From Ethanoligenens harbinense YUAN-3 (GTDB lineage Bacteria > Bacillota > Clostridia > Oscillospirales > Ethanoligenentaceae): a stretch of DNA of 64,000 nucleotides. The notes beneath the pieces were generated by a model. That model was not told where the DNA came from. It saw only the letters and a program-made list of their open reading frames with translations, and did no database searches. Below are positions 3,448-53,590 of this stretch, piece after piece; position 1 is the stretch's first letter; every line of letters begins with the position of its first letter. The stretch covers positions 2,617,501-2,681,500 of the forward strand of contig NC_014828.1 of NCBI RefSeq assembly GCF_000178115.2, given 5' to 3'. Made by a program: the position numbers and the translations under genes.

Positions 3448-3475
3448 AGTGTCCAAAAACGACGGAGGAATTTAT

Positions 3476-7758: not shown

Positions 7759-8550
7759 ATGGCAACCACAATCTGTGTCATGAACCAAAAAGGCGGCGTG
7801 GGCAAAACAACCACCAGCGTCAATGTCGCCGGTATTTTGGCTACTAGAGGCTTTCATGTCCTCCTGGTGGACAACGATCCGCAGGGATCAGCTACGGCAT
7901 ACTACGATAAATATGTTGAGGAACCGGCAGACCATCGACAGCCGAAAGGCTTGATCGGTATCTATGATGTATATAGGCGGGATAACCCACTGATAGTCTC
8001 TGCGGTGGTCAGCAAGACAAAAGTTCTGAATCTGGAACTGGTTCCCGCCGACTATCGATTCAAGGATACAGACGGCGACCTGTTTCTGGTCAAAGCCGGC
8101 AAGGAGTTTGTCTTGACGGATGCTCTGGAACCGGTTCTCGAATCTTACGATTACATCATCATAGACTGCCCGCCTGCCGACAACAATTTGACGACCAATG
8201 CACTCGTTGCTGCCAACTACATCCTCCTGCCGAACATCGCAGACGCAAACGCATTCAAAAGTATCACGTCCATGATTACCATGATAAAAAACGTCAAACG
8301 CAGCAACCCGCGCCTCAAGATTCTCGGCACCCTCATTACCATGGACGAAAAGACCCGAAACAAAGCAGCCTATAAGCGGGCGCTTTTCAACTACACGAAT
8401 TTTCCCGCCCTGTCCACCGTGATCCGCAAGAACACACGTATCGCGGAGGCGATCAACAACCAGGTGCCCGTGCATGTGTATGACGCCAGCTGCACCGGGG
8501 CGGCCGACTATAATGCTTTGGTGGACGAACTGCTGTCAAAAATGGGGTGA
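7759..8550 (+). CDS. parA: ParA partition ATPase
   Basis: A 263-residue ParA/Soj-type ATPase. The deviant Walker A KGGVGKTT is at residues 11-18, the switch region DNDPQGSAT at 39-47, and the Walker B-like DYIIIDCPP near 132-140. It moves the element to daughter cells together with ParB, whose gene starts six bases downstream. Two palindromes lie within the coding sequence, at 8034 and 8127. AGAGGT precedes ATG 7759. Confidence 0.93.
   Translation: MATTICVMNQKGGVGKTTTSVNVAGILATRGFHVLLVDNDPQGSATAYYDKYVEEPADHRQPKGLIGIYDVYRRDNPLIVSAVVSKTKVLNLELVPADYRFKDTDGDLFLVKAGKEFVLTDALEPVLESYDYIIIDCPPADNNLTTNALVAANYILLPNIADANAFKSITSMITMIKNVKRSNPRLKILGTLITMDEKTRNKAAYKRALFNYTNFPALSTVIRKNTRIAEAINNQVPVHVYDASCTGAADYNALVDELLSKMG
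8034..8045. promoter_or_regulatory. GGAACTGGTTCC palindrome variant inside parA
   Basis: Read in frame as Glu-Leu-Val-Pro. It differs from the perfect site at one base. Confidence 0.6.
8127..8138. promoter_or_regulatory. GGAACCGGTTCT palindrome variant inside parA
   Basis: Read in frame as Glu-Pro-Val-Leu. Only the last base differs from the perfect site. Confidence 0.6.
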
Positions 8551-8556
8551 ACTTCA

Positions 8557-10134
8557 ATGAACACCTACTATACCAAATGCGGACGGTCATTCAAAAAATC
8601 CACAAAGGCCGACACGACCGGCTATCAGATGGCACAACAGATTGAGGCAGATGGCTCTCTCGGCCGAGTTATGGATATCGAATGTCAGAAATGCCCCTTT
8701 GTCGTGGATGTGAAAGAAGGCTGGCCTGCCCGGCATAAACGGTATGAGTGCCGGGCAGGAAGCAAACCACCAAACCATCAAAGCGATTGGATCGGCAGTC
8801 TTGACGATAAGTGTTCCATTTATGTTCGCTCCCTTGACCACGATCTCTGTGATCGCATAATCTCCTATTGCAAAGAAAATCCGTATCTTGCCGCAGGATA
8901 TAATCAGGATCGCCCGGATTGCCGCAGAACGGTATCCATCAGCTGCGCCGCAAACAAAAAGGGCGTTGCGGCCAAAAAAGAGGTCATCAAAACATTTTTC
9001 CCTGACATTGCGGTCACACCAGACCCTACGGACGATTCGGATGATCTCGCTGATTCTATGACAGAGGAGTATGGCAAAATGGCAAAATTCAACGCCGATG
9101 CAATCTTAAACTCGGCAAAAGAAGTCGCGCAGCAGACCGAAGGATTGGAACCGGTTCCCGAATTGAAAGAAATCCGTTGTGAGCTGATTGATCTAAATCC
9201 TGATAATGCGTTTGCGAAAAAAGACACACAGGAGTCAATTGAGGAATTGGCTACAGACATCCGCGCCCACTCCCTGCTACATCCAATCGTCGTAAACCAT
9301 GTGGATGGCCGTTATCGGTTGATCTCCGGCGAACGTCGTTTTCGGGCTGTCACAGAGGTGTTAAATTGGCAGGTAGTCGATGCAAAGGTGTTTGAAAACC
9401 TGGTCAAAATAGACGAGATGGAAATGTTGTATGCCGCCAATTTCCAGGTACGTCAATACACGGCAGCCGAATTGCTGGAGCATTATCAGCGATTGGTTCA
9501 ATTCTTTCAAACAGAAGATCCAAAGCAACGACTTACCGCAAAAGACAAAGATAAAATTGCCCGTTTCCTTAATGTGACGCGCCGGCAGGTCAACAAATAC
9601 GCTCGTATTATGGAAGCCTTGTCCGAAGGTGAACGCCAAGCTATCATGGATAAGAGCATGAGCATCAACAAGGCGAATGATCTTGCTAAAGAGCGTGCGC
9701 AAAAAGCCGAACGATCCGTTGCTCCTTCAAAAAATCGGAAACCAGTTCCAGCAGCACCACGCCAGCAAGCGTCATCGTCAACTGGCTCTCACCAAAAGGC
9801 CACTGAGGAATCCGTATATATGCCGCCACTCCCGGCGTCTCCTTTGTCGGAAAATCAGGAACCAGTTCCCGGTAGAGTAAAGCTTTTGATCTCACAAAAA
9901 AGTGAGATGAATCAGGAACCGGTTCCCGCTGCACCTGTGCATCCCGTGCCGCACGAAACGTTAAATAATAATGAGTCTTCGGTAGCCGATGTGGCTCGGC
10001 AAATTAACGAGATTACAACCGGCCTCTACCTGTTGGGCGATATGCTCAAAAAATCTGGTATTGACGCGAGGAACCCAATTAGAGAATTTGTTGAAACGAT
10101 GCAGGAGTATCTGCACGAGTATGCCGGCAAATGA
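8557..10134 (+). CDS. parB: ParB partition protein with N-terminal zinc-ribbon-like extension
   Basis: A 525-residue protein, much longer than usual ParB (about 250-330). Residues 1-90 hold spaced Cys residues (C8, CQKC near 46-49, C68) resembling a zinc ribbon. The ParB fold starts near residue 208 (ELIDLNPDN), with HPIVVNHVDGRYRLISGERRFRA around 245-268 carrying the GERRxRA CTP-binding motif. A helix-turn-helix region follows (KIARFLNVTRRQVNKYARI). A Pro-rich linker contains repeated PVP units, and the C-terminal helix (about 475-520) probably dimerises. The PVP units coincide with GGAACC(G/A)GTTCC palindromes in the DNA. Confidence 0.88.
   Translation: MNTYYTKCGRSFKKSTKADTTGYQMAQQIEADGSLGRVMDIECQKCPFVVDVKEGWPARHKRYECRAGSKPPNHQSDWIGSLDDKCSIYVRSLDHDLCDRIISYCKENPYLAAGYNQDRPDCRRTVSISCAANKKGVAAKKEVIKTFFPDIAVTPDPTDDSDDLADSMTEEYGKMAKFNADAILNSAKEVAQQTEGLEPVPELKEIRCELIDLNPDNAFAKKDTQESIEELATDIRAHSLLHPIVVNHVDGRYRLISGERRFRAVTEVLNWQVVDAKVFENLVKIDEMEMLYAANFQVRQYTAAELLEHYQRLVQFFQTEDPKQRLTAKDKDKIARFLNVTRRQVNKYARIMEALSEGERQAIMDKSMSINKANDLAKERAQKAERSVAPSKNRKPVPAAPRQQASSSTGSHQKATEESVYMPPLPASPLSENQEPVPGRVKLLISQKSEMNQEPVPAAPVHPVPHETLNNNESSVADVARQINEITTGLYLLGDMLKKSGIDARNPIREFVETMQEYLHEYAGK
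9147..9158. promoter_or_regulatory. GGAACCGGTTCC palindrome inside parB
   Basis: Perfect copy, read as Glu-Pro-Val-Pro just before the ParB fold begins. Confidence 0.7.
9858..9869. promoter_or_regulatory. GGAACCAGTTCC near-palindrome inside parB linker
   Basis: Read as Glu-Pro-Val-Pro. A weaker relative (GAAACCAGTTCC, 9738-9749, read Lys-Pro-Val-Pro) lies 120 bases upstream. Confidence 0.6.
9915..9926. promoter_or_regulatory. GGAACCGGTTCC palindrome inside parB linker
   Basis: Perfect copy, read as Glu-Pro-Val-Pro, 57 bases after the previous site and in the same codon phase. Confidence 0.7.
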
Positions 10135-10433: not shown

Positions 10434-10607
10434 ATGGGCAATATCATATCTATCGCTGTCCTTGGGTTGATCGCACTGGATGTGTCATTTGTACTATGTT
10501 GTTGCAAAGTTTCCGAAAGGTCAACTCGCTGGGAAGAATGGGCCCGGTTATCACACCGCACCCGCAAACACGACTATAAAAAAACAGGGAAGGAAATCAA
10601 ATCATGA
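10434..10607 (+). CDS. Small single-pass membrane protein
   Basis: A 57-residue protein starting at ATG 10434 with TTGGAGC upstream. A membrane segment at residues 5-23 ends in three Cys residues, followed by a basic tail. Its stop overlaps the next start (ATGA), so it is the first gene of the operon that runs into the pilus genes. Confidence 0.55.
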   Translation: MGNIISIAVLGLIALDVSFVLCCCKVSERSTRWEEWARLSHRTRKHDYKKTGKEIKS

Positions 10608-10879
10608 CCATTACAAAAGTTATCATTCGGAAGTTGTTTGACGGCCCCAAGATAAAGGGGATTGCCTCCATCATAGTCGATGATGAGTTTACCATTCATG
10701 ACATCAAAATTATTGAGGGCGTTGAACGCCTGTTCTGCGCGATGCCGAACCGGCATTCGGAGGATGGCCGATACCAGGACATCGTGCATCCCATTTCCCA
10801 GGAAGCCAGACAGAAGATTGAGGAGGCGATTCTGGAAGAATATTATAGCGCAATCCATCAGGAGGCGACAGCTTCATGA
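10604..10879 (+). CDS. spoVG: SpoVG family regulator
   Basis: A 91-residue SpoVG-like protein. The family core is clear: ASIIVDDEFTIHDIKIIEG near residues 21-39, then FCAMPNRHSEDGRYQDIVHPI near 44-64. SpoVG proteins bind DNA and RNA and act as pleiotropic regulators in Gram-positives. The gene overlaps both neighbours by four bases (ATGA), so it is locked into the pilus operon and may control it. Confidence 0.9.
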   Translation: MTITKVIIRKLFDGPKIKGIASIIVDDEFTIHDIKIIEGVERLFCAMPNRHSEDGRYQDIVHPISQEARQKIEEAILEEYYSAIHQEATAS

Positions 10880-11094
10880 GCATCCGTGAATCGGATCTTA
10901 TCGCCGGATCTGTTGTTGTTGTCCAGTCAAACCGCACCTTTTGCGGCTTTGAGAGTGGCGTTATAACCGGCCATAGCACCGGCGGCCATGATGGCCTTGT
11001 TTGCTACTATACCGACGCCGGTGGAGGCCCCAAATGGTGCTTGGCAAGCCAGATCATCGATATCCAATTGAAAAATCGGGTGGTTCGAGAATGA
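10876..11094 (+). CDS. Hypothetical protein in pilus operon
   Basis: A 72-residue, Gly-rich, probably beta-stranded soluble protein (LIAGSVVVVQSNRTFCGFESGVITGHS). It is coupled by ATGA overlaps to spoVG upstream and the prepilin peptidase downstream. No family is recognised. Confidence 0.55.
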   Translation: MSIRESDLIAGSVVVVQSNRTFCGFESGVITGHSTGGHDGLVCYYTDAGGGPKWCLASQIIDIQLKNRVVRE

Positions 11095-11573
11095 ACATAT
11101 TCGGCTTTCTGTGTTTCACGGCTGTGCTGCTTGGCACAGCCGTTATTGATGCCCGTACAAGGCATATCCCTAAATACGTCCACTGGCTTCTATTGGCAAT
11201 TGGCCTTGTCCGCGTCTTTTCAACCGGCCCGCCGGATCAAATCGTAAATAACCTGCTCTATTCCATTGCTGGAATGGCGATCGGCTTTGTTCCCCTGTTT
11301 TTACTTGGCTTGGTGGCGGGCGGCGTCGGCGGTGGTGATGTCAAGCTGGCCGGAAGCGCCGGGTTTGCGTTGGCAGAGCCGGGATTGGCGATCCTATATC
11401 CCGGTACATATTGGGCAATCTTGGGCTCTCTGCTTTTGTTTCTGTCTGGAAAACTGTACTGCAAAATACGAAATGGCAAACGTATAAGCGTACCAATGCC
11501 TTTTGCGCCGTATTTTGCGGCAGCGGGCATTGGTACTTATTTTTTACAACTGATTTGGAGGACGATCACATGA
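11091..11573 (+). CDS. tadV: TadV/CpaA-type prepilin peptidase
   Basis: A 160-residue A24 aspartyl peptidase starting at ATG 11091. Both catalytic aspartates are visible: DARTRHIP near residue 18, and the GGGDVK motif near residue 79. About six membrane helices fit the family. It lacks the N-methylation domain, as is usual for Tad peptidases. It should cleave the leader of the pilin at 16530 and of the pseudopilins. Confidence 0.88.
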   Translation: MNIFGFLCFTAVLLGTAVIDARTRHIPKYVHWLLLAIGLVRVFSTGPPDQIVNNLLYSIAGMAIGFVPLFLLGLVAGGVGGGDVKLAGSAGFALAEPGLAILYPGTYWAILGSLLLFLSGKLYCKIRNGKRISVPMPFAPYFAAAGIGTYFLQLIWRTIT

Positions 11574-12433
11574 ATGAAGAGTTGAACAAACCGCGGCAGG
11601 CTGCAAAATCGGACAACCCCGACGGGGAGCCTGACGCAAAAGAGAGGCAGAAGCGGAACCTGGACCCTGTCGCGCAAAAACGGCTTGTGGCCAGCATATT
11701 AAGTATCGGTCTGGCTGTCGTGGTCGGCTTTGGTGGGGTATTTCTGGTCAACAGGCTGACGATGGCCACCGTGCCGGTCGTTCGTGCCAAAGAAATCATT
11801 CCGCAGGGTACGCAGATCACTCCGAATATGATCGAAGTGGATCAGGTAAGCAAATACAATTTGCAAAGCAACGTGACAGGTAATACCTCTCTGGTGGTGG
11901 GCGCTTATGCAACGACCGAGATCATGCCGCAGGACAATATCACCGGAGACAAGCTTTCAAAGTCCAACCCGGTTTACACATTGGATACTGGCGAAATGCT
12001 GGTAAGCGTGCCGGTCAAAAACCTGTCCGACGCTTTGGCCGGGCAGCTGAAGGCGGGCGACATTGTGCGGGTTTCCGCGCTGGTTGCATCTGGAAGCACG
12101 GCAGGCAGCAACAATGCGGGAGGAACCGCGAATCAGACTACGACGCCGGCCGAGTTGCAATATGTCAAGGTGGCCGCTGTCGCGGCTTCCAATGGGCAGA
12201 GCGCCGCGGTCTCCCAGGCACAGGCCAAAACAGCAATCGGAACCACAACCAGTTCCAACACGTCCAACCTGCCGGCGTCTGTCACGCTGTATGTAAATGA
12301 ACAGCAGCTTTCCCGCTTGACGCAGATGAGCCAGTCCGAGTTGACCTTCGCCCTGGTGTATCGCGGAGGCGGCACGGAAGCGAAGACGCTGTTGCAAGAG
12401 CAGACGCAGCTTTTGGAGGGGGTGCAGAAATGA
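11570..12433 (+). CDS. cpaB: CpaB/RcpC-type pilus assembly protein (SAF domain)
   Basis: A 287-residue protein starting at ATG 11570, with GGAGGA upstream and overlapping the peptidase stop. One membrane helix lies near residues 42-62. A SAF domain follows (VPVVRAKEIIPQGTQITPNMIEVDQV...). A second beta domain (MLVSVPVKNLSDALAGQLKAGDIVRVSAL) matches the RcpC/CpaB family. In Gram-negatives this protein works with the secretin. In Gram-positives it is membrane-anchored and probably guides the pilus through the wall. Confidence 0.82.
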   Translation: MNEELNKPRQAAKSDNPDGEPDAKERQKRNLDPVAQKRLVASILSIGLAVVVGFGGVFLVNRLTMATVPVVRAKEIIPQGTQITPNMIEVDQVSKYNLQSNVTGNTSLVVGAYATTEIMPQDNITGDKLSKSNPVYTLDTGEMLVSVPVKNLSDALAGQLKAGDIVRVSALVASGSTAGSNNAGGTANQTTTPAELQYVKVAAVAASNGQSAAVSQAQAKTAIGTTTSSNTSNLPASVTLYVNEQQLSRLTQMSQSELTFALVYRGGGTEAKTLLQEQTQLLEGVQK

Positions 12434-13158
12434 TTCTGATAGGCGTTATCGGTACGCCCGGCGTCGGTAAGACAACCTTTGCCGCCGCGCTGGCCAATAT
12501 TCTTGCCGACAGAAATAACCACGTGATTCTGGCAAGCTTGGATGACCACTGCCCTGCCATGAGTCTTTGGGAACCTTTAAGGCATGATGTGCCGTCGTTC
12601 AAGGAATTTATTCAAAACGACGGCAGCATTGACAGTGAAGTGGTCTATGAAAAGGTCACGTTCAGCAGCGGAAACGGCAATGTTCTGCTTTTCGGATTTA
12701 CCAAGGCAGACCTTTGTGGGTCAACAAGCGTGACTGAAAAACTGGTGGACAGCATCGTGGATGTCGTCACGGCGGATAACTCTGTTGACTACATGGTTGT
12801 GGACGGCAGTAACTATAAAGAGGCTATGACCAGCTATGCAATCAGCCACGCAGACGTGTTGATTCGCATCCTGCCCGCCGACATCACCGGTGGTATCAAT
12901 TATTTTTGCGAGGTCATCCGGGGCGCGGAAAACGCTTCTCAGGAGCGTTTGAACATCCTCTATAGGCGGAATTTGTTTGATCCGCTGGATGAAGTTGTTC
13001 ACACGACGCACATGGATCTGTTTGATACGATCCCGTTTTCGGATGAATGTCACCGCAAACTGGTGGATGGTCGGTTGGTATCCAAATATGACGATGCGGA
13101 ATACCGGCATACAGTCGAGCGCGTCGCCGTGCATATCCGGGAAAGGAAGCAGGCATGA
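12430..13158 (+). CDS. TadZ/CpaE-like P-loop ATPase
   Basis: A 242-residue MinD/ParA-like protein with Walker A GTPGVGKTTFAAALAN at residues 8-23. It lacks the typical receiver domain of CpaE. The remainder has the alpha/beta pattern of the family (DYMVVDGSNYKEA near 118-130). Its position between cpaB and tadA, with ATGA overlaps on both sides, supports a TadZ role in placing the pilus machine. Confidence 0.75.
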   Translation: MILIGVIGTPGVGKTTFAAALANILADRNNHVILASLDDHCPAMSLWEPLRHDVPSFKEFIQNDGSIDSEVVYEKVTFSSGNGNVLLFGFTKADLCGSTSVTEKLVDSIVDVVTADNSVDYMVVDGSNYKEAMTSYAISHADVLIRILPADITGGINYFCEVIRGAENASQERLNILYRRNLFDPLDEVVHTTHMDLFDTIPFSDECHRKLVDGRLVSKYDDAEYRHTVERVAVHIRERKQA

Positions 13159-14513
13159 TACAATTTCCATTCTTCCTTCCGGATCAAACGGAAATCACCT
13201 ACCAACAGGCGTATGACATGGCACAGAAGTATGTGAAGGAAGAACACGCCGAAGAGTTCAATAGTAAAAAATCAAACGTTCCAAAACTCGCCGGTATCAT
13301 CCGGCGCTTTTTTGTTAGCCGCGGTATCCACACGTCAGGCGATCTGGATCAACTGTCACATTCCATGGCGCAGGATATGGGCGGGCTATCGTTTCTGTCC
13401 AAATATTTGGAGCACCTTGACGATTATCCCACATTGGAAGAAATCAACATCAACGCATGGAACAGCATCGTTCTGCGTTTTTCAGATCGCCCGGATGAAT
13501 GGCTGCAAGAAGGCTTTTCATCACCCGTGCACGCGCTTGGTATCCTCAATAAGATCAAAAGCCGGACTGGAACGCAGCAGCTGAGTCCCGCGTTTCCTGG
13601 TTCGATTGGGTATGTGTTTGATTCCGTCCGTGAGGCTTCCATGTGTGCGCCGATCATTCCGGAAAGTGCAGGCGTCTATGGCAGTATCCGTATTGTAAGA
13701 CCGGCTCCGCTTTCTACTAGGCTGATTCTGCAATCCGGTTGCATGACGCGCGAAATGCTGGACTTCACCATTATGTGTATGAAACATTCAGTGAACGTCT
13801 TAATCGGCGGCAAACCGCGAGCCGGTAAAACCACAATCCTCAATTACCTGCTTTCCATCTTAGTCAAAGATCCCAATATCCGCATCGGGATTATTGAGGA
13901 AGGAAGTCGAGAAGTCGTACTGACAACCTATGATGAAAACGGCAGACCACAGAACCAGGTATTGTCCATGCTCACCAGGCCTTCAGAAAATCACGATCAA
14001 AACTATGATCCAAACCGGTTGTTGGAAATATGCCTGCGGTTTGGCCTTGACGTCATCGTCGTGCAGGAGATGCGCAGCGGTGAGGCCTATGTGGCCGTCA
14101 AGACCGCAAACACAGGCATGGCGGTCTATTCGACCATTCACAGCAATGATGGCGAGAGCACCTATTATCGCGGCGTCGATCTCATGGAGGAGGGCTCTCC
14201 GCAGCCGGAAACGGTTCTCATGCGCAAACTGGTTCTTGGATTCCCAGTGGTCTTATACTTCAAACGTATGGAAGACGGCGTTCGCCGTTGTATGGAAATC
14301 ATGGAGGGCTTTTATGAGCGTGGCGAGCTAAGGTGCAAGACTTTGTATCAGTTTGTCACGGATGATAATGTGCTGGATGCAAACGGAAAGATCCATGTCA
14401 AAGGCCATTTTGAATGGAAAAACGACCTTTCCGAACGCACACAGCGTATTCTCCGAAACAACGGCGTCAGCGCCGCAGAGCTGCAACAATACATACAGGG
14501 TGGTGTTGCGTGA
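13155..14513 (+). CDS. tadA: TadA/CpaF-type secretion ATPase
   Basis: A 452-residue ATPase of the VirB11/GspE superfamily. Walker A GGKPRAGKTT is at residues 218-227. Asp-box and Walker B equivalents occur near IGIIEEGSREV and LDVIVVQEMRSGEAY, and the conserved His of IHSND follows. It powers pilin assembly and retraction. VirB11 itself would have the same fold, but the flanking tadB and tadC settle the assignment. Confidence 0.9.
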   Translation: MIQFPFFLPDQTEITYQQAYDMAQKYVKEEHAEEFNSKKSNVPKLAGIIRRFFVSRGIHTSGDLDQLSHSMAQDMGGLSFLSKYLEHLDDYPTLEEININAWNSIVLRFSDRPDEWLQEGFSSPVHALGILNKIKSRTGTQQLSPAFPGSIGYVFDSVREASMCAPIIPESAGVYGSIRIVRPAPLSTRLILQSGCMTREMLDFTIMCMKHSVNVLIGGKPRAGKTTILNYLLSILVKDPNIRIGIIEEGSREVVLTTYDENGRPQNQVLSMLTRPSENHDQNYDPNRLLEICLRFGLDVIVVQEMRSGEAYVAVKTANTGMAVYSTIHSNDGESTYYRGVDLMEEGSPQPETVLMRKLVLGFPVVLYFKRMEDGVRRCMEIMEGFYERGELRCKTLYQFVTDDNVLDANGKIHVKGHFEWKNDLSERTQRILRNNGVSAAELQQYIQGGVA

Positions 14514-15469
14514 TGAACCTGCTCATTTTTTCAGCGGTGCTTGTGTCTGCCGCAATCGCGATTGGACTCTGCATGAGTATTGGCATCCATCCGAAAGATC
14601 TGGCAGCTCTTTTCAAGGCACCAGGTCCAAAACTGCGGACGCTCAAGCAGCGCGTCCGCAAAGCCAAACACCAGGAGAAGCCCTTCTTTATCGTTCGTGA
14701 GTTTCAAAACGCAAAAACGATTCTCAAGGATACGCACCGGGAACAGGACTACCAGCGCTATAAAAAGATGTCCATTCAGATGGCCATTGGGGGCGCCTTG
14801 ATCGGCTGCTGCTTTCTCAATCCGTTTCTTTCGGCTTCCCTCGCGCTGTTCGGCATGTTTCTTCCAATTTTCATGATCTATCTGACAGCCGCAACGTTCC
14901 GCAGTCAGTTTGCCGCTGAAATGTATACCACGATGTCCGTAATTTCGACGAGCTACCAGCGCCAATATGATCTGATCCGGGCGGTGCGGGAAAACGTGGA
15001 TTCAATGAACGAGCCAATGAAAGGCCTATGGACGGTATTCCTGCGCGACTATGAAAACTTTAACGCTGCGAACGTCTTCAGCGGAATACGTGAGCTGCGT
15101 GGGAAGATCAACAACGTCGTCTGGCAGGAATGGTGCGATGATCTGATATTGTGCCAAACCGATCCGACCAGAAAGTTTCTGCTTACCGGCGCGGTTAAAA
15201 AAGCGACCCAGCAAAGCCGTGCCCGGATGATGCTGGACGCTATGCTGGACGAGCCGGTCTTTCAGGCGGTCGGCACAATGATCATTGTGCTTGCATCCAT
15301 TCCAATCTGCGGATTCTTCTACACGGAATGGGGCTATCTGCTCATGAATACATGGCCCGGAAAACTCTCCATTGCGATCATTGTCATCGCCTGCCTGTTC
15401 TTATGCTATATAGCCGTACATGCCACCCGTCCGATTGATTTGCTAGAGGAGGTGGAGAAAGGTGCCTGA
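14513..15469 (+). CDS. tadB: TadB inner-membrane platform protein
   Basis: A 318-residue protein starting at ATG 14513, overlapping the tadA stop by one base. One membrane helix is at the N-terminus, a pair lies near residues 90-130, and a pair near 255-310, with a type II secretion F-like cytoplasmic domain between (YTTMSVISTSYQRQYDLIRAVREN). With TadC it forms the platform on which TadA acts. Confidence 0.82.
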   Translation: MNLLIFSAVLVSAAIAIGLCMSIGIHPKDLAALFKAPGPKLRTLKQRVRKAKHQEKPFFIVREFQNAKTILKDTHREQDYQRYKKMSIQMAIGGALIGCCFLNPFLSASLALFGMFLPIFMIYLTAATFRSQFAAEMYTTMSVISTSYQRQYDLIRAVRENVDSMNEPMKGLWTVFLRDYENFNAANVFSGIRELRGKINNVVWQEWCDDLILCQTDPTRKFLLTGAVKKATQQSRARMMLDAMLDEPVFQAVGTMIIVLASIPICGFFYTEWGYLLMNTWPGKLSIAIIVIACLFLCYIAVHATRPIDLLEEVEKGA

Positions 15470-16385
15470 CATCGTGCTCTATATCCTTTGTACCGCGGTT
15501 GCCGCAGCCGTCTATTATGGGCTGTACACGGCTCTGAGTTGTCATATGGGCTTACCGAGTCTGCGGAGTCTGAACGTTATCCGCCGCCTGACTGCATCTA
15601 CAAAAGACATCGCGTTAAGTGAAAAAATCACCTTGCCCATTGCGGGCTTACTCGAGGCGAAAATCCATCTGAACGGTTATACCAGAAGCAGGCTTCAGGC
15701 AGACCTGAAGGCAGCAGGACTGGCCGAATATACCCCCGAACGTTATACCGCAATGTCGGTCGCATTTGGAGTGATGGTCTTTATTCCCGGACTGATCCTG
15801 GCTTTCGCCGGAATTAAACTGGGCCAGAATATCTTCCTGATTGCCGCAACTGCACTGATTGCCTGTTCTGTAATCGTCGGCATTGCCAAACAGCGGGAGA
15901 TCCGTAAGATCGCGAAACGCAGACGCGGGCGCATTGAACTGGAAATCCCCAAAATGACCGACTCAGTGCTGCAATCCCTTTCCAAGCGTAATGGTCGTGC
16001 AGATATTACAACCATTTTACGTGAATACCAGCGAGTTGCCGGTCCGGATCTCAAGAAAGAGATCGGCTATATGCTTGCGGATATCGAAACATCCAACAAT
16101 GAACGTGTTGAAACAATCCTGCTGCGAACGGAGAACCGTTTAAATTCGGAAATTGCAACATCACTCATCCGTGGCTTAATCGGTATCTACAATGGTGAAG
16201 ACATGCGTGAATACCTACAGGGGCTCGTGCTGGAAATGAACGAACAGCAGATTGAATTTGCTGCCCGCGCCGCAAGACGGCGGCCGAACGAACTGACGCT
16301 TCCCACATGGGCCGTGATAGGCTCCATGGTCCTGATGATCTGCATTCTCATCCTATCGACGATATTTCTTCATCTTCCGGGTTGA
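15462..16385 (+). CDS. tadC: TadC inner-membrane platform protein
   Basis: A 307-residue protein overlapping tadB by eight bases. A membrane helix at the N-terminus, two near residues 95-145 and one at the C-terminus flank a T2SF domain (LEIPKMTDSVLQSLSKRNGRADITTILREYQRVAGPDL). It is the usual partner of TadB. The operon breaks here: 144 bases follow before the pilin gene. Confidence 0.82.
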   Translation: MPDIVLYILCTAVAAAVYYGLYTALSCHMGLPSLRSLNVIRRLTASTKDIALSEKITLPIAGLLEAKIHLNGYTRSRLQADLKAAGLAEYTPERYTAMSVAFGVMVFIPGLILAFAGIKLGQNIFLIAATALIACSVIVGIAKQREIRKIAKRRRGRIELEIPKMTDSVLQSLSKRNGRADITTILREYQRVAGPDLKKEIGYMLADIETSNNERVETILLRTENRLNSEIATSLIRGLIGIYNGEDMREYLQGLVLEMNEQQIEFAARAARRRPNELTLPTWAVIGSMVLMICILILSTIFLHLPG

Positions 16386-16529
16386 TTACTGATATAAATC
16401 AGTTTTCATAGTTGATAAATGGTCTTGTTGACGCGAAAGGGGTGATGCTAGACCCAATTGCTATTTAATGGAGGTGATGTGGAGCATCTATATTCCGTAT
16501 CCATCAAATCAGAAGAAAGAGGTTGTGTC

Positions 16530-16796
16530 ATGCAAAAAATCCGCCGTTTGCAAAATTCCGTTAGATACCATGCAACGAAGGGCTACCTTCATGCTCTGGC
16601 TGTCCGTGACAATGCGAAAGGCGCCGCCTTCGCATTGATCAGTAACGATGATGGTTACATCGATATGGCTATGAAGATCATTATCGGCGTTGTTTGTGGC
16701 CTGTTGATTTTCGGTGTCCTTTACGCGATCGTGCAATCTTCCGGTCAGACCGCCCAGACGAAAGTCTCCAATGCCTTCAACTACGCCGGATCGTAA
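16530..16796 (+). CDS. Flp-type pilin candidate
   Basis: An 88-residue protein starting at ATG 16530 behind AAAGAGG. A basic leader of about 43 residues ends at NDDGYIDMAMK, followed by a hydrophobic helix (IIIGVVCGLLIFGVLYAIVQ) and a short polar tail, the layout of a Flp/TadE-like prepilin. It is the only small pilin-like gene with its own terminator, which suits high expression of a major subunit. The exact cleavage site is not certain. Confidence 0.65.
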   Translation: MQKIRRLQNSVRYHATKGYLHALAVRDNAKGAAFALISNDDGYIDMAMKIIIGVVCGLLIFGVLYAIVQSSGQTAQTKVSNAFNYAGS

Positions 16797-16826
16797 GGCC
16801 TGTTCGTCATCGTCTGTATGCTTCAC

Positions 16827-16852
16827 GCCGCCCTTTACGGGCGGCTTATTTT
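16827..16852 (+). terminator. Terminator after the pilin gene
   Basis: Stem GCCGCCC/GGGCGGC with TTTAC loop, then TTATTTT. It separates the pilin from the pseudopilin genes. Confidence 0.75.
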
Positions 16853-16927
16853 GAAAACAATCGCCTCAAGGCTTTAGATAGAGTGGATAGTACCAGAATA
16901 ATCGGAACACAGGAGGGTAATCAAGCT

Positions 16928-17389
16928 ATGAAAAAAAGACTCTTGCGGCTTTTAAAAGACAACCGCGGAGAAGCACAGATCGATTCTGTGTTTTTTCTCT
17001 TTGCCTTTTTTCTTTCTCTCGCATTTGGGTTGTCAATCTTTGTGTCAACTGCCGGCAAAAGTAACGCTTATAATCTGGCGCAGCTGGCCGCAAGGCAGAT
17101 CAGCGCCAACGGTGCGGTGGATGGCAGTACGATCAGCGCTCTGTTAAAAGTGGCACAGGATGGTAGATATACGTTGACGGTTAACGCTCCGGATGACGGC
17201 GTATCCATGCAGGTTCCAATCAGCAGTTCCCAGACATTGATGAGTTCTACCGCCATCCAGTATGGAACGTCCTTTAATGTCACCGTAAGCCAGAACAGCA
17301 ATGACAAAATTGGGGTGGATGCCCAGCATTCCAATATTGTAAATGAAAGCGCGACAGTACCGGGGGTAAGCGAATGCTGGACAAAGTAA
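16928..17389 (+). CDS. TadE-like pseudopilin
   Basis: A 153-residue protein starting at ATG 16928 with AGGAGGG upstream. The basic leader (KKRLLRLLKDNRGEAQID) precedes a hydrophobic segment (VFFLFAFFLSLAFGLSIFV), matching the prepilin pattern with an acidic residue after the cleavage region. The exported part is Ser/Thr-rich. It overlaps the next pseudopilin gene by 16 bases. Confidence 0.65.
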   Translation: MKKRLLRLLKDNRGEAQIDSVFFLFAFFLSLAFGLSIFVSTAGKSNAYNLAQLAARQISANGAVDGSTISALLKVAQDGRYTLTVNAPDDGVSMQVPISSSQTLMSSTAIQYGTSFNVTVSQNSNDKIGVDAQHSNIVNESATVPGVSECWTK

Positions 17390-17949
17390 CGTATGCGCTT
17401 TTTCAGCGCGCAAAAAAAGCTCTGCAATCCGACGAGGGAAACTTCACACCGATGATCGCCCTCGCACTAATCGGTGTGTTTCTGCTCATAGCGTTGGGCC
17501 TGGAATCGTGGCGGCTCAACTCAACATCGGATTTCGTAAACGAGGCGGTACGCTCCAGCCTGATTTCCGCAAATGTGCAGAACGCCGAAACGCTCTACAC
17601 CGGGGAACAGGACATGATTGGCGGCAGCTTTACCTATGACGCTTCCACAAACACCTGGAGCGAACCGGTTGATACCACACCTGTCACGGATCTGCTTTCC
17701 AGTAAACTTGGGCTGACACAAGAGGGGTCGGACTGGATCAGCAAGGTGAACGGTCAGGAGAATTACAAGATTAAGGGCTTTGCCGTAACCGAGTCCCAAC
17801 CGGCCGCGTCGGATGGCACACCGGACAGCACAAAAAGCCTAACCATTACGGCCAGCTTTACGCTGGAGATCCCCTACAACGCAGGCGGTACCGTTACGAA
17901 GATTTCCGTTCCGATGAATGTGCCGGTCGGAACGCAGGGGAAATTTTGA
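17374..17949 (+). CDS. TadE/TadF-like pseudopilin
   Basis: A 191-residue protein. The leader DEGNFTPMIALALIGVFLLIALGLESWRL near residues 20-48 has the prepilin layout: a Gly/Asn-Phe junction, then a hydrophobic helix. The remainder is an exported beta-rich domain. It probably forms the pilus tip or priming complex together with the product of 16928. Confidence 0.65.
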   Translation: MLDKVTYALFQRAKKALQSDEGNFTPMIALALIGVFLLIALGLESWRLNSTSDFVNEAVRSSLISANVQNAETLYTGEQDMIGGSFTYDASTNTWSEPVDTTPVTDLLSSKLGLTQEGSDWISKVNGQENYKIKGFAVTESQPAASDGTPDSTKSLTITASFTLEIPYNAGGTVTKISVPMNVPVGTQGKF

Positions 17950-17962
17950 AAGGAAATGTACA

Positions 17963-18511
17963 ATGGAAAATGATAAGGCGGCAAAACCCTATTGGCCGGT
18001 CAGCGAGACATTGCATAAGATCAGCAAGCCGTCCGGGCTGCTGCTGCTTATCTGGATGGCACTCTTTGCGCTGCCAGGATGGAAGCAGCTCACAATGGCT
18101 ACTCATACTCCCATGTCCGACATATATGGTTTTATTTCTGCTCTCGGCATTTTCTGCGGTTCACTCTGGTTTGCAATCGTTTCATCGTGCCGCGCGGATG
18201 CTTTCCCGGCATTTTCTATTCGGAACTTGCCGAGAATCATTTTGACAATCCTATTGCGACTCATAGAGTACTGGGCAGCGGCAAGTGTGGCCGTTTTTCT
18301 GTTATTCGGCTTCGTTGCTTACCCGCGCCACCATGAACTTCTGTCTTGTGTTTGGGTGGCTCTGGCGGTCGTGTTCATCGTAACTCATGTAGTCGGTAAG
18401 CATCTGGCACGGAAGCGTCAGACCGTATCGCTCGTTGCGGAAAACCCACCTGTCCGTCCTAACCCCCCGTCCGGTGAACACACTGCGAACCTGGTTAAAA
18501 CGAAACTTTGA
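17963..18511 (+). CDS. Membrane protein, last gene of pilus cluster
   Basis: A 182-residue protein starting at ATG 17963 with AAAGGA upstream. About four membrane helices (near residues 24-40, 52-70, 88-112 and 122-142) are followed by a basic, Pro-rich tail. No family is recognised. Its position suggests a link to the pilus, but its sequence gives no direct evidence. Confidence 0.5.
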   Translation: MENDKAAKPYWPVSETLHKISKPSGLLLLIWMALFALPGWKQLTMATHTPMSDIYGFISALGIFCGSLWFAIVSSCRADAFPAFSIRNLPRIILTILLRLIEYWAAASVAVFLLFGFVAYPRHHELLSCVWVALAVVFIVTHVVGKHLARKRQTVSLVAENPPVRPNPPSGEHTANLVKTKL

Positions 18512-19672: not shown

Positions 19673-19791
19673 GCAACTATAGGAATAAACTTCCATTCAA
19701 ACCAACCGATATATTACAGGAGATGTTCCCCTGATCCCAGAAACGAATGATCCAATATTCAAATACATGCGACATATGAGGAGTGCTTCAG

Positions 19792-21699
19792 ATGAATAAG
19801 CAGGCCACAACTAAAGCTAAAAAAGTCAAAGAACTGCGTTCCAAGATGTTGGTCATTGCCATGGCGGCCATTCTGACGGTCGCCGGCGGCGCGGTATCCG
19901 CGTCTGCCGCACCTGTAACCACTTCTGTCCAGACGGCGGCTTCTGTGCGGTACAAAGCTGCGACTGGCGGAATCACGGATCTCGACACGCCGGCCACTAC
20001 CTATACCGGTACCATTCCGGTGTATGGCTGGGTACTCAATGCGTCTGGTATCAACCGCGTGGACGTCTACGCACTGGATAGCACTGGCCATTATCATGGG
20101 ATTGGCTCGGTGGATGGCAGCAAGCTTACCGCCCGGCAGGATGTACAGAATGTTTTCCCAGCTTATGGCACGCTCAACAGCGGATACAGCCTGACCGCCA
20201 ATGTAAGCACTCTTGCGCCGGGCAGCTACACGCTCTGCGTTGCGGGGATCGGCAAGGATGGTTCGGTAAACTGGTCGTCCGTTCCGGTTTCCGTCGGCCC
20301 GGAACCGCTGACCGACATTGACGCGCCATCTGGTGGCAGCGAGCAGGACGGTTCCATTACCATTTCCGGTTGGGCGCTCAACCACGGCGGTATCAACCGC
20401 GTGGACGTATATGCACTGGACAGTAGCAGCCATTATCACGGACTTGGTTCTGTAGCAGGAGATACGCTGACCGCCAGACAGGACGTGGAAAACGTATTCC
20501 CTGACTATAGCGCGCTGAATTCCGGGTACAGCCTTTCGGCTGACGTGTCCACACTTCCGGCAGGTAACTACACACTCTGCGTCGCCGGAATCGGTAACGA
20601 TGGAGATGTGCAGTGGGCGACCAGAAACATTACAGTAGGCCCCGCGCCACTTACGGATATTGATACATATGGCCCTATGACTAATGGCACCCTTAATGTG
20701 GCAGGATGGGCACTTAATAAGTCGGGTATCAGTCGTGTGGATATGTACGCATGGGACAGCGCCGGTCATCCGCACAGTCTCGGATCGGTAGATGGTGGCG
20801 CGCTTACAGCAAGACAGGATGTGCAAAAAGCGTTTCCGGCCTACAACATGCTTAACAGTGGTTATTGGCTGACAGTCCCTGCGGGAACACTTCCTGCTGG
20901 CAACTACACGCTGGCGGTCGCCGGGATCGGCAATGATGGTACGGTGCAATGGGGATCAAAAACGATCACAATTCGAGGCACAACAACCGCAGCTCCCATC
21001 ACCGACCTTGATACCCCGTCTACCACATACACCGGCACGATCCCGGTGTATGGCTGGGCGTTGAACACCTCGGGGATCAACCGCGTGGATATCTACGCGT
21101 ATAGTAGCGGAAGCACCACAGCCATTAAACTTGGATCAGTAGATGGCGGTGCGCTCACAGCCAGACAGGATGTCGCGAACGCATTTCCGGCATACGGTAT
21201 CCTCAACAGCGGCTACAGCTACACGGTACCGGCCGGCACGCTTGCTCCCGGTAGCTACACGCTGGCGGTCGCGGGTATTGGAAACGATGGAGATGTGAAG
21301 TGGGAAACGAAAGGAATTACTGTTCAGAAGGTTGCCAACTATCAGGGTATTAATGAGGTGAAAACCTATACCGATGAGATTACCGGTATCACGCAGACAG
21401 TGCAATTTCTCGGAGTGGGCGCCGGATACTGTGAAGTGGCTGGCGGCACAGCGAACATCAATACGACCCCTGCGCTGGGCGCTGCGCATGGTGGATTTAA
21501 TGCTACAGTTTCGCTTATAGGATCAAACGGCATTCATCAAGGGGGTTCTACTGCCGTCGTCGGAACCTCTGGCACATGCAGCAGCCTAATTTTCAGCAAT
21601 TTGACCGCCGCCACTTACACCATCCAGCTCGCTGCCAACGATGGCACGGTCGTAGCAAAATACTCGTTCACCGTTGACTCCAACGGCAACGTAGAATAA
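19792..21699 (+). CDS. Secreted four-repeat surface protein
   Basis: A 635-residue protein starting at ATG 19792 with GAGGAGTG upstream. The signal peptide ends near ASAAPV. Four repeats of about 105 residues follow, each with ITDLDTP...YGWALN.SGINRVDVYA...LTARQDV.NAFPAYG.LNSGYS...GSYTLAVAGIGNDG. The last 115 residues form a domain also found in the next gene (YQGIN.VK.YTDEITGI.QTVQFLGVGAGYCEVAGG). No sortase motif is seen. An adhesin or wall-bound role is likely. Confidence 0.75.
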   Translation: MNKQATTKAKKVKELRSKMLVIAMAAILTVAGGAVSASAAPVTTSVQTAASVRYKAATGGITDLDTPATTYTGTIPVYGWVLNASGINRVDVYALDSTGHYHGIGSVDGSKLTARQDVQNVFPAYGTLNSGYSLTANVSTLAPGSYTLCVAGIGKDGSVNWSSVPVSVGPEPLTDIDAPSGGSEQDGSITISGWALNHGGINRVDVYALDSSSHYHGLGSVAGDTLTARQDVENVFPDYSALNSGYSLSADVSTLPAGNYTLCVAGIGNDGDVQWATRNITVGPAPLTDIDTYGPMTNGTLNVAGWALNKSGISRVDMYAWDSAGHPHSLGSVDGGALTARQDVQKAFPAYNMLNSGYWLTVPAGTLPAGNYTLAVAGIGNDGTVQWGSKTITIRGTTTAAPITDLDTPSTTYTGTIPVYGWALNTSGINRVDIYAYSSGSTTAIKLGSVDGGALTARQDVANAFPAYGILNSGYSYTVPAGTLAPGSYTLAVAGIGNDGDVKWETKGITVQKVANYQGINEVKTYTDEITGITQTVQFLGVGAGYCEVAGGTANINTTPALGAAHGGFNATVSLIGSNGIHQGGSTAVVGTSGTCSSLIFSNLTAATYTIQLAANDGTVVAKYSFTVDSNGNVE

Positions 21700-21738
21700 A
21701 ACTGACATCGTGAATTTCAGACGATGAGGAGGACACTC

Positions 21739-22791
21739 ATGAACAAAATTAAAGAGTTGGCCACTCAAATGGCGGCGAAAATCAGGAAAGCGCTTTCCAC
21801 CCGAAAAGGTAAAACTTATGCCGGAATCGGCGGTTGCGCCGTCGTGGCCATCGTGATCTCCGCGCTGGCAATCAACAGTATTCCGACATCCGCGTCGATT
21901 TCAAACCATCGCTTCAGGATCGATGCGGCTTCGTCTTCCTCCAGCACTGGAACCGCTTCCGGCAGTTCGGGGCCCGTTGTTTCCTCCGGTAGCACTCCCT
22001 CGTCCACCAACAGCATCCCGATCGTTAGTGCGGCCCCGGTTCCCAGCGGCGCGGCCCCAACGGCTGCACAGGCGATGCAGACCATCCCGGTCACATCGGT
22101 AGACTTTAACCACCGCTCTCTTACATTGTCCGTCGGCGCGACTTCGCAGCTCACCGCCAGCATTACTCCCGGCAGCGCCTCGGACAAGACGCTTACGTGG
22201 ACTTCGACAAACACAGGAGTGGCCACGGTAGACCAGTCCGGTACGGTCAAGGCGGTCGGCACCGGAACGGCATACATCCGGGCAACGAACTCGGATGGCC
22301 AGCGGGACACCTGCACCGTGACGGTGCAGGGCAGCACTGGAAATACTGGCAGCGGCACGGGTAATGGCGGTGGGAACGCGGGCGGTGCCCCCGGCACCCC
22401 TACGACAAATGTTCCGGGGCATGTTGCAAACTACCAGGGTATCAATGTAACAAAGTCTTATACCGATGAAATCACCGGCGTTCAGCAAACGGTTCAATTT
22501 CTCGGAGTGGGCGCGGGCTATTGCGAAGTGGCTGCGGGTAATGCCGACATCAACACCACCCCGGCACTGGGTGCGGCTCATGGTGGATTCAATGCAACAG
22601 TTTCTTTGATAGGTTCAAATGGTATTCATCAAGGCGGTTCCACTGCTGTTGTTGGAACCTCCGGTACATGCAGCGGGTTGGTCTTTGGCAATTTGACAGC
22701 CGGCACTTACACTATCCAGCTTACTGCCCACGACGGAACCGTGGTTGCCCGGTACCACTTTTCCGTCGATTCCGGCGGCAACGTCGCATAA
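21739..22791 (+). CDS. Secreted BIG2-domain protein sharing a C-terminal domain with its neighbour
   Basis: A 350-residue protein starting at ATG 21739 behind GAGGAGG. It has a membrane anchor or signal near residues 30-50 and a Ser/Thr/Pro-rich stalk to about 115. A bacterial Ig-like group 2 domain follows (VTSVDFNHRSLTLSVGATSQLTASITPGSASDKTLTWTSTN). After a Gly-rich linker comes the same 115-residue terminal domain as in the preceding protein. DNA identity of the shared part is high, suggesting recent duplication. Confidence 0.75.
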   Translation: MNKIKELATQMAAKIRKALSTRKGKTYAGIGGCAVVAIVISALAINSIPTSASISNHRFRIDAASSSSSTGTASGSSGPVVSSGSTPSSTNSIPIVSAAPVPSGAAPTAAQAMQTIPVTSVDFNHRSLTLSVGATSQLTASITPGSASDKTLTWTSTNTGVATVDQSGTVKAVGTGTAYIRATNSDGQRDTCTVTVQGSTGNTGSGTGNGGGNAGGAPGTPTTNVPGHVANYQGINVTKSYTDEITGVQQTVQFLGVGAGYCEVAAGNADINTTPALGAAHGGFNATVSLIGSNGIHQGGSTAVVGTSGTCSGLVFGNLTAGTYTIQLTAHDGTVVARYHFSVDSGGNVA

Positions 22792-22850: not shown

Positions 22851-22866
22851 TAGGAGGCGAGTTTTG

Positions 22867-25320
22867 GTGAAATTTAGATCGGTTCGTCGCTTCAAATTTT
22901 TGAGCGTTTTCATTCTCGCGGCGATCATCCTGGCGACCGTTGCTCTGGCCGCCGGAAGCGGCACAAACGAATGGCCAGGCGGTCGCATCGGCTATCGATT
23001 GGATACACATTATGGCCAGGTCGCGGCGAATGCGCCTGCAATTCCTCTGTACAATGATCCCGGCTGTACGCAGCCCATCAATCACTATCTACTGCCCGGG
23101 GACTGGGTGATTGCATATTTCAATGGGGACAGCTTTTCCGGGGCAGTGACATATCCGATCACCGTCCCACAAAATGGCGGCGGAGATGATGGCCTTGAAT
23201 ATACTACACATTACATCCACCCCGGAGATCTATCCTTTATCGTCAGCGGTACCGGCAGTTTCAGCGGAACAGACTGGAATCAAACAACATGGTTTAATCA
23301 TCTGCCAACAAATATCGGTTATACCAGTAAACTCCCGGGCAACGGCGATACCGTATGGGTCGGCAATAACACAGATGGCGGAACCCCGGGGGGTTTTCAA
23401 GTAGTTTCAGCTCCAAGCGGCAATGGATATTACGACCTATGGCCAGGAAACGCATCTTCAAAAATCATGTCTGCATTCCTCTCTCAATATTGCTATTACG
23501 ACTCGTCCAGATCCGACTTCGTCAATGCAGATTATTCATGGAACCTGTTGTCCCAACCGTGGAACACGGTAGGTTTGCACCAGGGTTACAATCTGATCTC
23601 TTACGCCGGGATGGACGCTTCGGGAAACTACGCGACCGGCCAGCGGTATCTGTGGTGGGATACAATCGCACCGGACATGGATACCAACCTCACGGCGATC
23701 CAATATTCGCCTGGGCATTCCGGTTGGCTCAATCTGTCCGATTTCAACAGCGATCAAAACGTCGTGATCCTGTCACACGAAGACACCAGCCAGACCACGG
23801 ATGTCTCCGGATTGAATCCGGCATCCCTGCGGACGGATTTCGACGGCATAAACCGTTGGGGAAACAGCGCAGGCTATCAAGGGTTCGACACGTTTTCTGC
23901 CACCAGCGGTGTCAAAAACTATTTGCTGAAATCCATTATGCAGGCCATGGGCGTGCAGGCTGACGGCACCGGCGGGCAAGGCACACACACCTATACCTTT
24001 TCAAGCATCGACAACGCCTGGAACACCGCCGTGATCGGCAACTCTGTGCAGATCGATACTATCCCTCCAACTTGTACCGTATCCACCACGGCCAGTGACT
24101 GGAAATCCGGATCTGCACCAATCACTCTGGACTTTGAAGATCCCGGCGCCTCCAACGGTACGGGCAGCGGCGTGGCCGCAGAACAGTACAGTTGGTCGCA
24201 AAGCCAGACCGATGCAGGAACATGGCAGAACTACACCGCAGGCGGGCAGCTCACCCCTCCTGGAACCGGTTCCTGGTATCTGCACTGGCAGTCTACCGAT
24301 GTGGCCGGGAACAGCAGTAGCGGCGTTTTCGGTCCTTACAGCGACAACAGTGGGCTTGCTGTAACCATCCAAGCACCGAATGCCGCCTATCTGACCGATA
24401 CCGATGTCATAACTTCCGCAATCGTCGCGGATAACAGCGGCGTCCCGGTCTTGCCGAGCGATTCCGTCACGCTGAAGCTAACTGTCACCGCAGCCGATGG
24501 CAGCACCTATACCACGCAGACCAAGGCGATCGTCGTGCCGGCCGAAGATCAAAACCTCATCTGGTTCCGATGGCACACACCAGCCACGCCCGGGACCTAC
24601 ACACTTACGGCCACCGCGATCAGCCCCAGCGTTCCTGCGCAGGCCGGTTGGACAAGCACACTGCAATGGAATATCAACACACCCACAGAGTCCACGCCCC
24701 CGCAGCCAAAACTGTATGATAAGGCCCCGCCGTATTTCAGCATTCAAACACCTACGCCGTCCGGGTACTCCCCCTCGCTGACTTGGAATGAGTGGACGTA
24801 TACCGGCGGCGCATTCAAAAAAGAGACCTTTACGGCTAATCTAAGCGCGGCGCTGAAAATCACGCCGGAAATGGGCGAAGATGGCCAGACGCGCATTGTG
24901 ACGGCCACACAGGACGCAAGCGGCGTATGGACGATGAAAAGCGGGTACGGTATCAACGAGACGGCCACCGGCAGCGTAGCGGTCACTTCGGGAACCGGTT
25001 CCCAAATCGATGCGGCCAGCACCACGCTGGCGCAGCTCACCGAGGGCCGGTATCCCGAATTCAACTATTGGTCTGAAGGTTACTTCCGACTGTTCAAGAA
25101 CAATGGCGGCGGCAATTTTACGCTTCAGCCCAACAAGTACAGCGTTCTGAATCTGCCGGTGCATTATACTCCCGTCTGGTTCCCGGATGGGCCATACACG
25201 GCACAGGCGACCATTTCACAAGCATGGACGCCTGCCGGAATGCTTGGCGGCGACGCTACGGACACCATTCAGATCAAGGGCGCTTTGCCGCAAGACTGGT
25301 ATGTGAGGGTGTTCCAATAA
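22867..25320 (+). CDS. Large secreted beta-rich protein
   Basis: An 817-residue protein. TAGGAGG is followed by TTG 22864 or GTG 22867; GTG has the better spacing. The signal peptide (FKFLSVFILAAIILATVALAAG) is clear. The rest is Gly/Ser/Thr/Trp-rich, with Ig-like blocks (IDTIPPTCTVSTTASDWKSGSAPITLDF...) and no anchor motif. Two perfect GGAACCGGTTCC sites lie inside. Its last 17 codons are duplicated 372 bases downstream as part of a larger tandem duplication. Function unknown; an adhesin-like role is inferred from context. Confidence 0.65.
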   Translation: MKFRSVRRFKFLSVFILAAIILATVALAAGSGTNEWPGGRIGYRLDTHYGQVAANAPAIPLYNDPGCTQPINHYLLPGDWVIAYFNGDSFSGAVTYPITVPQNGGGDDGLEYTTHYIHPGDLSFIVSGTGSFSGTDWNQTTWFNHLPTNIGYTSKLPGNGDTVWVGNNTDGGTPGGFQVVSAPSGNGYYDLWPGNASSKIMSAFLSQYCYYDSSRSDFVNADYSWNLLSQPWNTVGLHQGYNLISYAGMDASGNYATGQRYLWWDTIAPDMDTNLTAIQYSPGHSGWLNLSDFNSDQNVVILSHEDTSQTTDVSGLNPASLRTDFDGINRWGNSAGYQGFDTFSATSGVKNYLLKSIMQAMGVQADGTGGQGTHTYTFSSIDNAWNTAVIGNSVQIDTIPPTCTVSTTASDWKSGSAPITLDFEDPGASNGTGSGVAAEQYSWSQSQTDAGTWQNYTAGGQLTPPGTGSWYLHWQSTDVAGNSSSGVFGPYSDNSGLAVTIQAPNAAYLTDTDVITSAIVADNSGVPVLPSDSVTLKLTVTAADGSTYTTQTKAIVVPAEDQNLIWFRWHTPATPGTYTLTATAISPSVPAQAGWTSTLQWNINTPTESTPPQPKLYDKAPPYFSIQTPTPSGYSPSLTWNEWTYTGGAFKKETFTANLSAALKITPEMGEDGQTRIVTATQDASGVWTMKSGYGINETATGSVAVTSGTGSQIDAASTTLAQLTEGRYPEFNYWSEGYFRLFKNNGGGNFTLQPNKYSVLNLPVHYTPVWFPDGPYTAQATISQAWTPAGMLGGDATDTIQIKGALPQDWYVRVFQ
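24262..24273. promoter_or_regulatory. GGAACCGGTTCC palindrome in coding sequence
   Basis: Perfect site, here read as Gly-Thr-Gly-Ser, a different codon phase from the parB copies. Confidence 0.6.
24991..25002. promoter_or_regulatory. GGAACCGGTTCC palindrome in coding sequence
   Basis: Perfect site, also read as Gly-Thr-Gly-Ser, 729 bases after the previous one. Confidence 0.6.
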
Positions 25321-31606: not shown

Positions 31607-31638
31607 ATTGCCCATAGTGTGAAAGGAGGTGCGTGGCC

Positions 31639-37730: not shown

Positions 37731-37731
37731 C

Positions 37732-53587: not shown

Positions 53588-53590
53588 AGC

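Follow-up and report, generated by a model that had tools for sequence, protein, structure and literature searches.

The window analysed here, a stretch of 64,000 bases spanning positions 2,617,501-2,681,500 of the single-contig 3,008,576-base genome of Ethanoligenens harbinense YUAN-3 (NC_014828.1), carries an intact Tad (type IVc) pilus operon at 11091-17949. The operon is part of an integrative and conjugative element (ICE), on which it sits between parAB and the genes for VirB4, a MobL relaxase and VirD4. Across the Clostridia, relatives of this Tad block and of a linked secreted protein, here called surf, are confined almost entirely to DNA that can transfer itself, a distribution suggesting that they help donors to hold recipients. 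On balance we lean towards reading the block as an accessory fixed to clostridial conjugative elements, in which pilus and adhesin together would serve to attach mating pairs, comparable to the thin pilus of R64. This reading draws on the genes present, their conserved order, the near-exclusive linkage of the block to transfer genes, its joining to several type IV secretion system (T4SS) lineages and how tightly Tad and surf co-occur.

Gene content of the Tad operon

An earlier, sequence-only reading of the window had described a near-complete Tad set with overlapping starts between 10434 and 18511. All of the genes that it named are present, as nine co-directional genes on the + strand with every frame open: a peptidase, CpaB, a TadZ-like protein, TadA, TadB, TadC and, after short gaps, a pilin and two pseudopilins. 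The TadZ-like member is recognizable only as a P-loop protein of the ParA/MinD type. The overlaps were also found, amounting to 1-4 bases between successive genes from the peptidase to TadB, 8 bases between TadB and TadC and 16 bases between the pseudopilins, and translational coupling within the operon is therefore likely, judging from this arrangement. The range given in that reading holds all of the Tad genes but is wider than the operon proper, as it takes in a gene for a SpoVG-family protein just upstream (10604-10879, + strand; PF04026, 2.6e-31) and one for a multi-pass membrane protein at the operon end (17918-18511, + strand), and it leaves surf (22864-25320) outside. Many related elements likewise have a SpoVG gene ahead of the Tad operon.

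The TadV-like (A24) prepilin peptidase (11091-11573) passes the Pfam cut-off (PF01478, 4.5e-11), as does the CpaB/RcpC pilus assembly protein (11570-12433; PF16976, 1.5e-8), which in addition matches TIGR03177 with 54 bits (1.2e-14), below the cut-off of 71. The TadZ-like ATPase (12430-13158) was assigned from CbiA/ParA-type matches and from its position, which is conserved in related loci; a comparison with PDB sequences returned general P-loop proteins only and no specific TadZ match. The TadA/CpaF assembly ATPase (13155-14513) is over the cut-off for PF00437 and has the invariant Walker A, glutamate and histidine positions. The best match of its family profile is to CpaF structures (E 4e-57 over 400 positions), compared with 8e-27 for VirB11, a difference that rules out VirB11 as the main identity of this protein. 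In most relatives the Walker A motif is GATxSGKT and the Walker B region contains GEMR; the window TadA has GGKPRAGKT and QEMR at these places and keeps the catalytic positions.

Two separate inner-membrane platform proteins, TadB and TadC, follow, each with one GspF/T2SSF domain. For TadB (14513-15469), neither a Pfam scan nor a search of PDB sequences gave a match, and its identity is therefore taken from its fold: the AlphaFold model (pLDDT 87) has the GspF fold and over about 110 residues resembles the cytoplasmic domains of SpoIIIAB, PilC, OutF and EpsF, with Z 9.8-11, the next-ranked row scoring 7.2. TadC (15462-16385) was placed by its family, 11 of whose 33 members match T2SSF/GspF (PF00482).

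The Flp-type pilin (16530-16796) was identified by a match to PF19629 (DUF6133, 2.4e-8) and by alignment. Pseudopilin 1 (16928-17389) is DUF4320-like, as judged from a weak match to PF14208 below the cut-off, its position and its alignment, and has the motif RG↓EAQID (the arrow marking the putative cleavage site). Pseudopilin 2 (17374-17949) is TadE/F-like by alignment, with G↓NFTPM preceding a hydrophobic stretch; the TadE Pfam model matches neither of the operon's pseudopilins. In related elements, a cleavage-like motif with the family consensus G↓EGY(V/I)D is common to the pilin and the DUF4320 protein.

Neither a secretin (RcpA) nor TadD is present among the operon genes, a genome-wide search for them not having been made. 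The RcpA secretin and TadD are diderm-only parts, and an operon without a secretin is expected in a monoderm. A search of the YUAN-3 genome with PF00437 gave three further places, which are PilB-, PilT- and SpoIIIAA-like by our reading and none of which belongs to the clade of the window TadA; the operon thus appears to be the sole Tad system of this genome.

Linkage to conjugative transfer genes

The host element is an ICE of about 61.9 kb at tRNA-Val, starting 8.3 kb left of the window and ending at position 53636. It is bounded by direct attachment repeats, a 48 bp exact repeat of the 3' part of tRNA-Val(GAC) (53591-53666): the right copy lies at 53589-53636 on the - strand and the identical left copy, 61.9 kb away, at L132:11725-11772, 8.3 kb left of the window. 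To the right of the element, the chromosomal sequence is richer in G+C. VirB4 (PF12846), the coupling protein VirD4 (PF02534) and a relaxase (PF18555) are all encoded between these repeats, in agreement with the claim of the sequence-only reading that the Tad genes share an element with them.

In a sample of 394 genomes of the order, TadA of the window clade occurs in 31, and 29 TadA loci were mapped with profiles for 21 gene families. Ten of the mapped loci end too soon for linkage to be judged; at 18 of the 19 with enough flank, VirB4 and/or VirD4 are encoded within the same stretch and in the same orientation. tadA and virB4 occur together in 16 genomes, compared with 3.3 expected (p 1.5e-9). 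Random presence of Tad relative to conjugation, the case that the sequence-only reading had set against its own proposal, is ruled out by these co-occurrence counts. On complete chromosomes, VirD4 lies 20-34 kb downstream on the same strand at six of seven TadA loci, and in the commonest layout the genes for Tad, p190, surf, p113 and TrbL are contiguous and co-directional.

Plasmids give the same picture. Among the 72,556 plasmids of the PLSDB collection, close TadA relatives (E below 1e-45) are found on six (CP141730, NZ_CP067350, NZ_CP067354, NZ_CP037841, NZ_CP154620 and OY725878), three of them from Clostridioides and the others from Terrisporobacter, Subdoligranulum and one Oscillospiraceae strain. 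All six carry VirB4/VirD4-type genes, despite which MOB-suite types every one as non-mobilizable; the annotated records of four show a MobP2 or MobP3 relaxase or a VirD4 protein. The co-inheritance of Tad and transfer genes that was to be expected from the sequence-only reading therefore holds when judged from TadA, which stands beside transfer genes at 18 of the 19 informative loci and on all six plasmids, but not when judged from the transfer genes, as many conjugative elements are Tad-less.

More widely, a scan of 84,980 species by one sequence motif gave 314 TadA relatives. The best 80 of the 314 are all from Bacillota or unclassified relatives of Bacillota according to their record titles, and in these 80 the order (SpoVG)-pilin-peptidase-cpaB-tadZ-tadA-tadB-tadC-DUF4320-TadE2 is kept with few exceptions. 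No relative was found on viral contigs, and the few matches in the phage collection are mostly to short unannotated faecal contigs; a prophage origin was accordingly rejected.

Three loci without linked VirB4/VirD4 were examined, of which at least two are damaged copies: in one (L159), tadA and tadB are separated by an insertion and surf is truncated, and in another (L194) tadC is split. In the third (genome G084), the Tad block is about 90% identical to that of another genome (G124), but the VirB4/VirD4 genes that stand upstream in the latter are missing. Such exceptions bear on the main rival explanation, in which the pilus and surf are a cargo trait not directly involved in DNA transfer: they would let the host adhere to gut mucus, fibres or other cells, and this benefit would pay for the upkeep of the element. 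That Tad pili act as adhesion organelles is known (PMC6668835, PMC5696575), and the many Tad-less conjugative elements also fit a colonization trait of this kind. A trait of use to the cell only should, however, often settle on chromosomes without transfer genes, and just one of the 19 informative loci is without VirB4/VirD4, while at least two of the three examined exceptions are damaged; we consider the cargo explanation rather unlikely, if well short of negligible.

Members of one Tad family adjoin VirB4 genes of at least five lineages and relaxases of both the MobP2 and the MobP3/MobL type. Agreement between the TadA and VirB4 trees is only partial (Mantel r 0.58, versus 0.92 for TadA-TadC and 0.89 for VirB4-VirD4), and the window is itself a hybrid, its TadA grouping with that of genome G008 and its VirB4 with that of G147, from which it follows that the Tad module has been joined to several transfer systems. 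The tree conflict and the Tad-less relatives together rule out that Tad belongs integrally to a single type of T4SS; the block goes with conjugative elements as an accessory and is not part of one transfer machine. The same data speak to a proposal in which Tad contributes to the transfer channel itself, TadA replacing a missing VirB11 and the pilin and pseudopilins a missing VirB2 and VirB5, so that a pseudopilus would form inside the T4SS. TadA does match VirB11 models too, and TrbL/VirB4 genes run on directly from the operon in the commonest layout. However, closely related T4SS modules with the same gene set are Tad-less (V_G281 and V_G147) and so presumably can function in its absence, the TadA profile lies much nearer to CpaF than to VirB11, and association with so many VirB4 lineages would be hard for a channel component. 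We regard a role within the channel as improbable.

The surf family and neighbouring surface proteins

Surf (22864-25320, + strand) is a Tad-linked secreted protein of 818 residues, consisting of an N-terminal part that differs between elements and a conserved C-terminal part with the motif WTPxGM. The N-terminal domains found among its members are a thioester domain (TED), SpaA or CARDB, and the conserved part falls outside all Pfam and NCBIfam models. The fold contains one clear Ig/CARDB-like domain at residues ∼250-350 (3idu, CARDB; Z 10.4, root-mean-square deviation 2.7, 99 aligned), the rest giving generic β-sandwich matches only. In nearly all related loci, TadE2 is followed by p190 and then by a surf of ∼565-610 residues.

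In the 394 genomes, surf is present in 30, and 25 of these also have tadA where 2.4 would be expected (Fisher p 4e-29). Among the Tad-negative genomes 26 have VirB4 and five have surf, and at the thresholds used none has both, so that surf shows no linkage to VirB4 alone (0 of the 26 Tad-less VirB4 genomes). On plasmids, surf is confined to exactly the same six of 72,556 as the close TadA relatives. The surf-only genomes that were inspected comprise one with other Tad genes running up to the contig end (G148), one with a shrunken Tad set beside VirD4 and a relaxase (G213) and one in which surf stands beside more distant VirB4/VirD4 (G104). The p113 protein and TrbL follow the transfer system instead and are also present without Tad (V_G281). 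Surf is thus a new secreted family whose occurrence follows Tad and not VirB4 alone, and it provides a marker for finding conjugative elements of this kind, which plasmid typing tools miss.

The general adhesin domains (TED, SpaA and CARDB) of the surf N-termini count in favour of the cargo explanation, as do the further surface proteins that adjoin the window operon. These are a secreted Ig-repeat protein (19783-21699, + strand; PF17957) and a secreted Big_2 protein (21724-22791, + strand; PF02368), the C-terminal domains of which are near-identical. Their Ig-type N-termini are unlike and their C-terminal ∼125 residues nearly the same, as though one shared base had been fitted with different adhesin heads.

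Proposed function

Tad machines build thin pili that extend, retract and serve in adhesion. In the mating-pair module that we favour, the prepilin peptidase would cleave the DUF6133 pilin and the DUF4320/TadE-like pseudopilins, and TadA, TadB and TadC, with CpaB and the TadZ-like protein, would assemble a thin pilus across the monoderm envelope and retract it. Surf, displayed by or with this pilus, would bind recipient cells or a surface, and the pilus could in this way catch recipients or anchor donors before T4SS transfer; retraction might then draw the cells together, upon which the element's own T4SS would transfer the DNA. That the pilus is made, that surf is bound to it and that it serves to attach mating pairs and not for adhesion in general are parts of the mechanism that we infer. 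Of the two roles offered by the sequence-only reading, bringing mating cells together is the best-supported inference for Tad, and the spread of an adhesion trait is possible.

Several observations weigh against such a role. TadA is missing from 26 of the 42 VirB4-positive genomes, and the nearest VirB4 relatives of the window, in G147 and G094, are Tad-less (the G094 contig ends soon after VirB4). Since conjugative elements with related VirB4 do without it, Tad is not needed for transfer in general. In the window pilin, the -1 cleavage position is occupied by Asp instead of the usual Gly/Ala, and this pilin may, to judge from its sequence, be processed poorly or elsewhere. Finally, an IS66 insertion splits the tyrosine integrase at the left end of the element (L132:11725-15437; TnpC at L132:12098-13630, - strand), as a result of which the copy in YUAN-3 is probably stranded and unable to excise unless helped in trans; it is an ICE by descent and perhaps no longer mobile. 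The split integrase and the unusual pilin would also suit a relic, a stranded element whose Tad operon is no longer used. As all of the Tad frames, surf, the relaxase, VirB4 and VirD4 are open, we judge this very improbable, and it would in any case concern the YUAN-3 copy only and not the family.

According to the textbook view, Gram-positive conjugation proceeds without pili, contact being made via surface adhesins (PMC6540685). The sequence-only reading had likewise taken it to lack long pili; this agrees with the textbook view, but a Gram-positive tad plasmid with conjugation signatures has already been published for Cutibacterium acnes (PMC5696575). The linear plasmids of C. acnes resemble the present elements in combining a tad locus with VirB4-like, FtsK/TraB-like and TcpC-like genes. 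Their pilin was detected in surface fractions and appendages were seen by electron microscopy (PMC5696575). They differ in being actinobacterial and linear, in that their pili are treated as a colonization factor (PMC5696575) and in that no surf member was found on them, the six PLSDB plasmids with surf all being from Clostridia. In the open-licence literature we found no account of the clostridial Tad class, of its ICE linkage or of surf, the C. acnes plasmids being the only precedent.

The closest functional analogue is the thin pilus of R64/IncI plasmids, a type IVb pilus whose PilV adhesin stabilizes mating pairs, in liquid and in the gut (PMC8213034). It likewise pairs an element's own type IV filament with adhesin variants, but is type IVb and not Tad/IVc and belongs to Gram-negative bacteria; the R64 adhesin is varied by a shufflon (not looked for in the clostridial elements), whereas surf varies in its N-terminal part and keeps its C-terminus. 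Tad systems are often transferred and are also present on plasmids (PMC6668835). The chromosomal Tad/Flp pili of Caulobacter and Aggregatibacter (PMC6668835) share TadA/CpaF, TadB, TadC, a TadZ-type protein, CpaB, the peptidase, a Flp-type pilin and TadE/F-like pseudopilins with the clostridial system, which differs in its operon without a visible secretin, its diverged TadB (no Pfam match), DUF6133 pilin and DUF4320 pseudopilin and its linkage to ICEs and surf. PrgB of pCF10 (PMC6540685) offers a parallel as an element-borne surface protein proposed to unite donor and recipient, but adhesins of the PrgB type have no pilus machine.

A broader proposal, which we put forward tentatively and hold to be somewhat short of probable, is that clostridial ICEs and plasmids of a widespread class have as their mating apparatus a dedicated, retractable Tad pilus, with surf as its exchangeable tip adhesin. 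If this is true, the apparatus would be the Gram-positive equivalent of the R64 thin pilus, assembled independently of it, and the N-terminus of surf would determine which recipients it catches. The presence of the Tad-plus-surf module on many clostridial conjugative elements, including Clostridioides plasmids, would then offer a concrete, testable machine by which donors find recipients in the gut, in contrast to the usual account of Gram-positive conjugation by surface adhesins without pili.

Other features of the element

Besides SpoVG, the Tad block and the surface proteins, the element encodes a set of partition, transfer and candidate replication functions, all on the + strand. The partition ATPase ParA (7759-8550; PF13614, 2.5e-43) and a ParB-like protein (8557-10134; PF02195, 3.4e-12) precede the Tad block. 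The transfer region downstream encodes a DUF3991/Toprim protein (31633-32634; PF13154, PF13155), a VirB6-like membrane protein identified with our own profile (32959-34866), the VirB4-type ATPase (35631-37730; PF12846, 3.7e-11) and a lysozyme-domain protein (37705-38400; PF00959, 1.9e-22) that probably opens the cell wall. These are followed by the MobL relaxase (41751-45884; PF18555, 4.6e-61), VirD4 (47838-49976; PF02534, 2.4e-39) and an HTH_36 protein (50774-52168; PF13730, 7e-8), which is a candidate replication initiator.

The relaxase is fused to 14 Sel1 repeats (PF08238, 2.5e-121), an unusual architecture of 1377 residues, and is followed by an ankyrin-repeat protein (45908-47836). The same element also encodes RCC1-repeat (28106-29917) and leucine-rich-repeat (1668-2474) proteins, and two adjoining small proteins (3380-3817 and 3934-4293) give weak matches to PF13629, the T2SS-T3SS pilus N-terminal domain.

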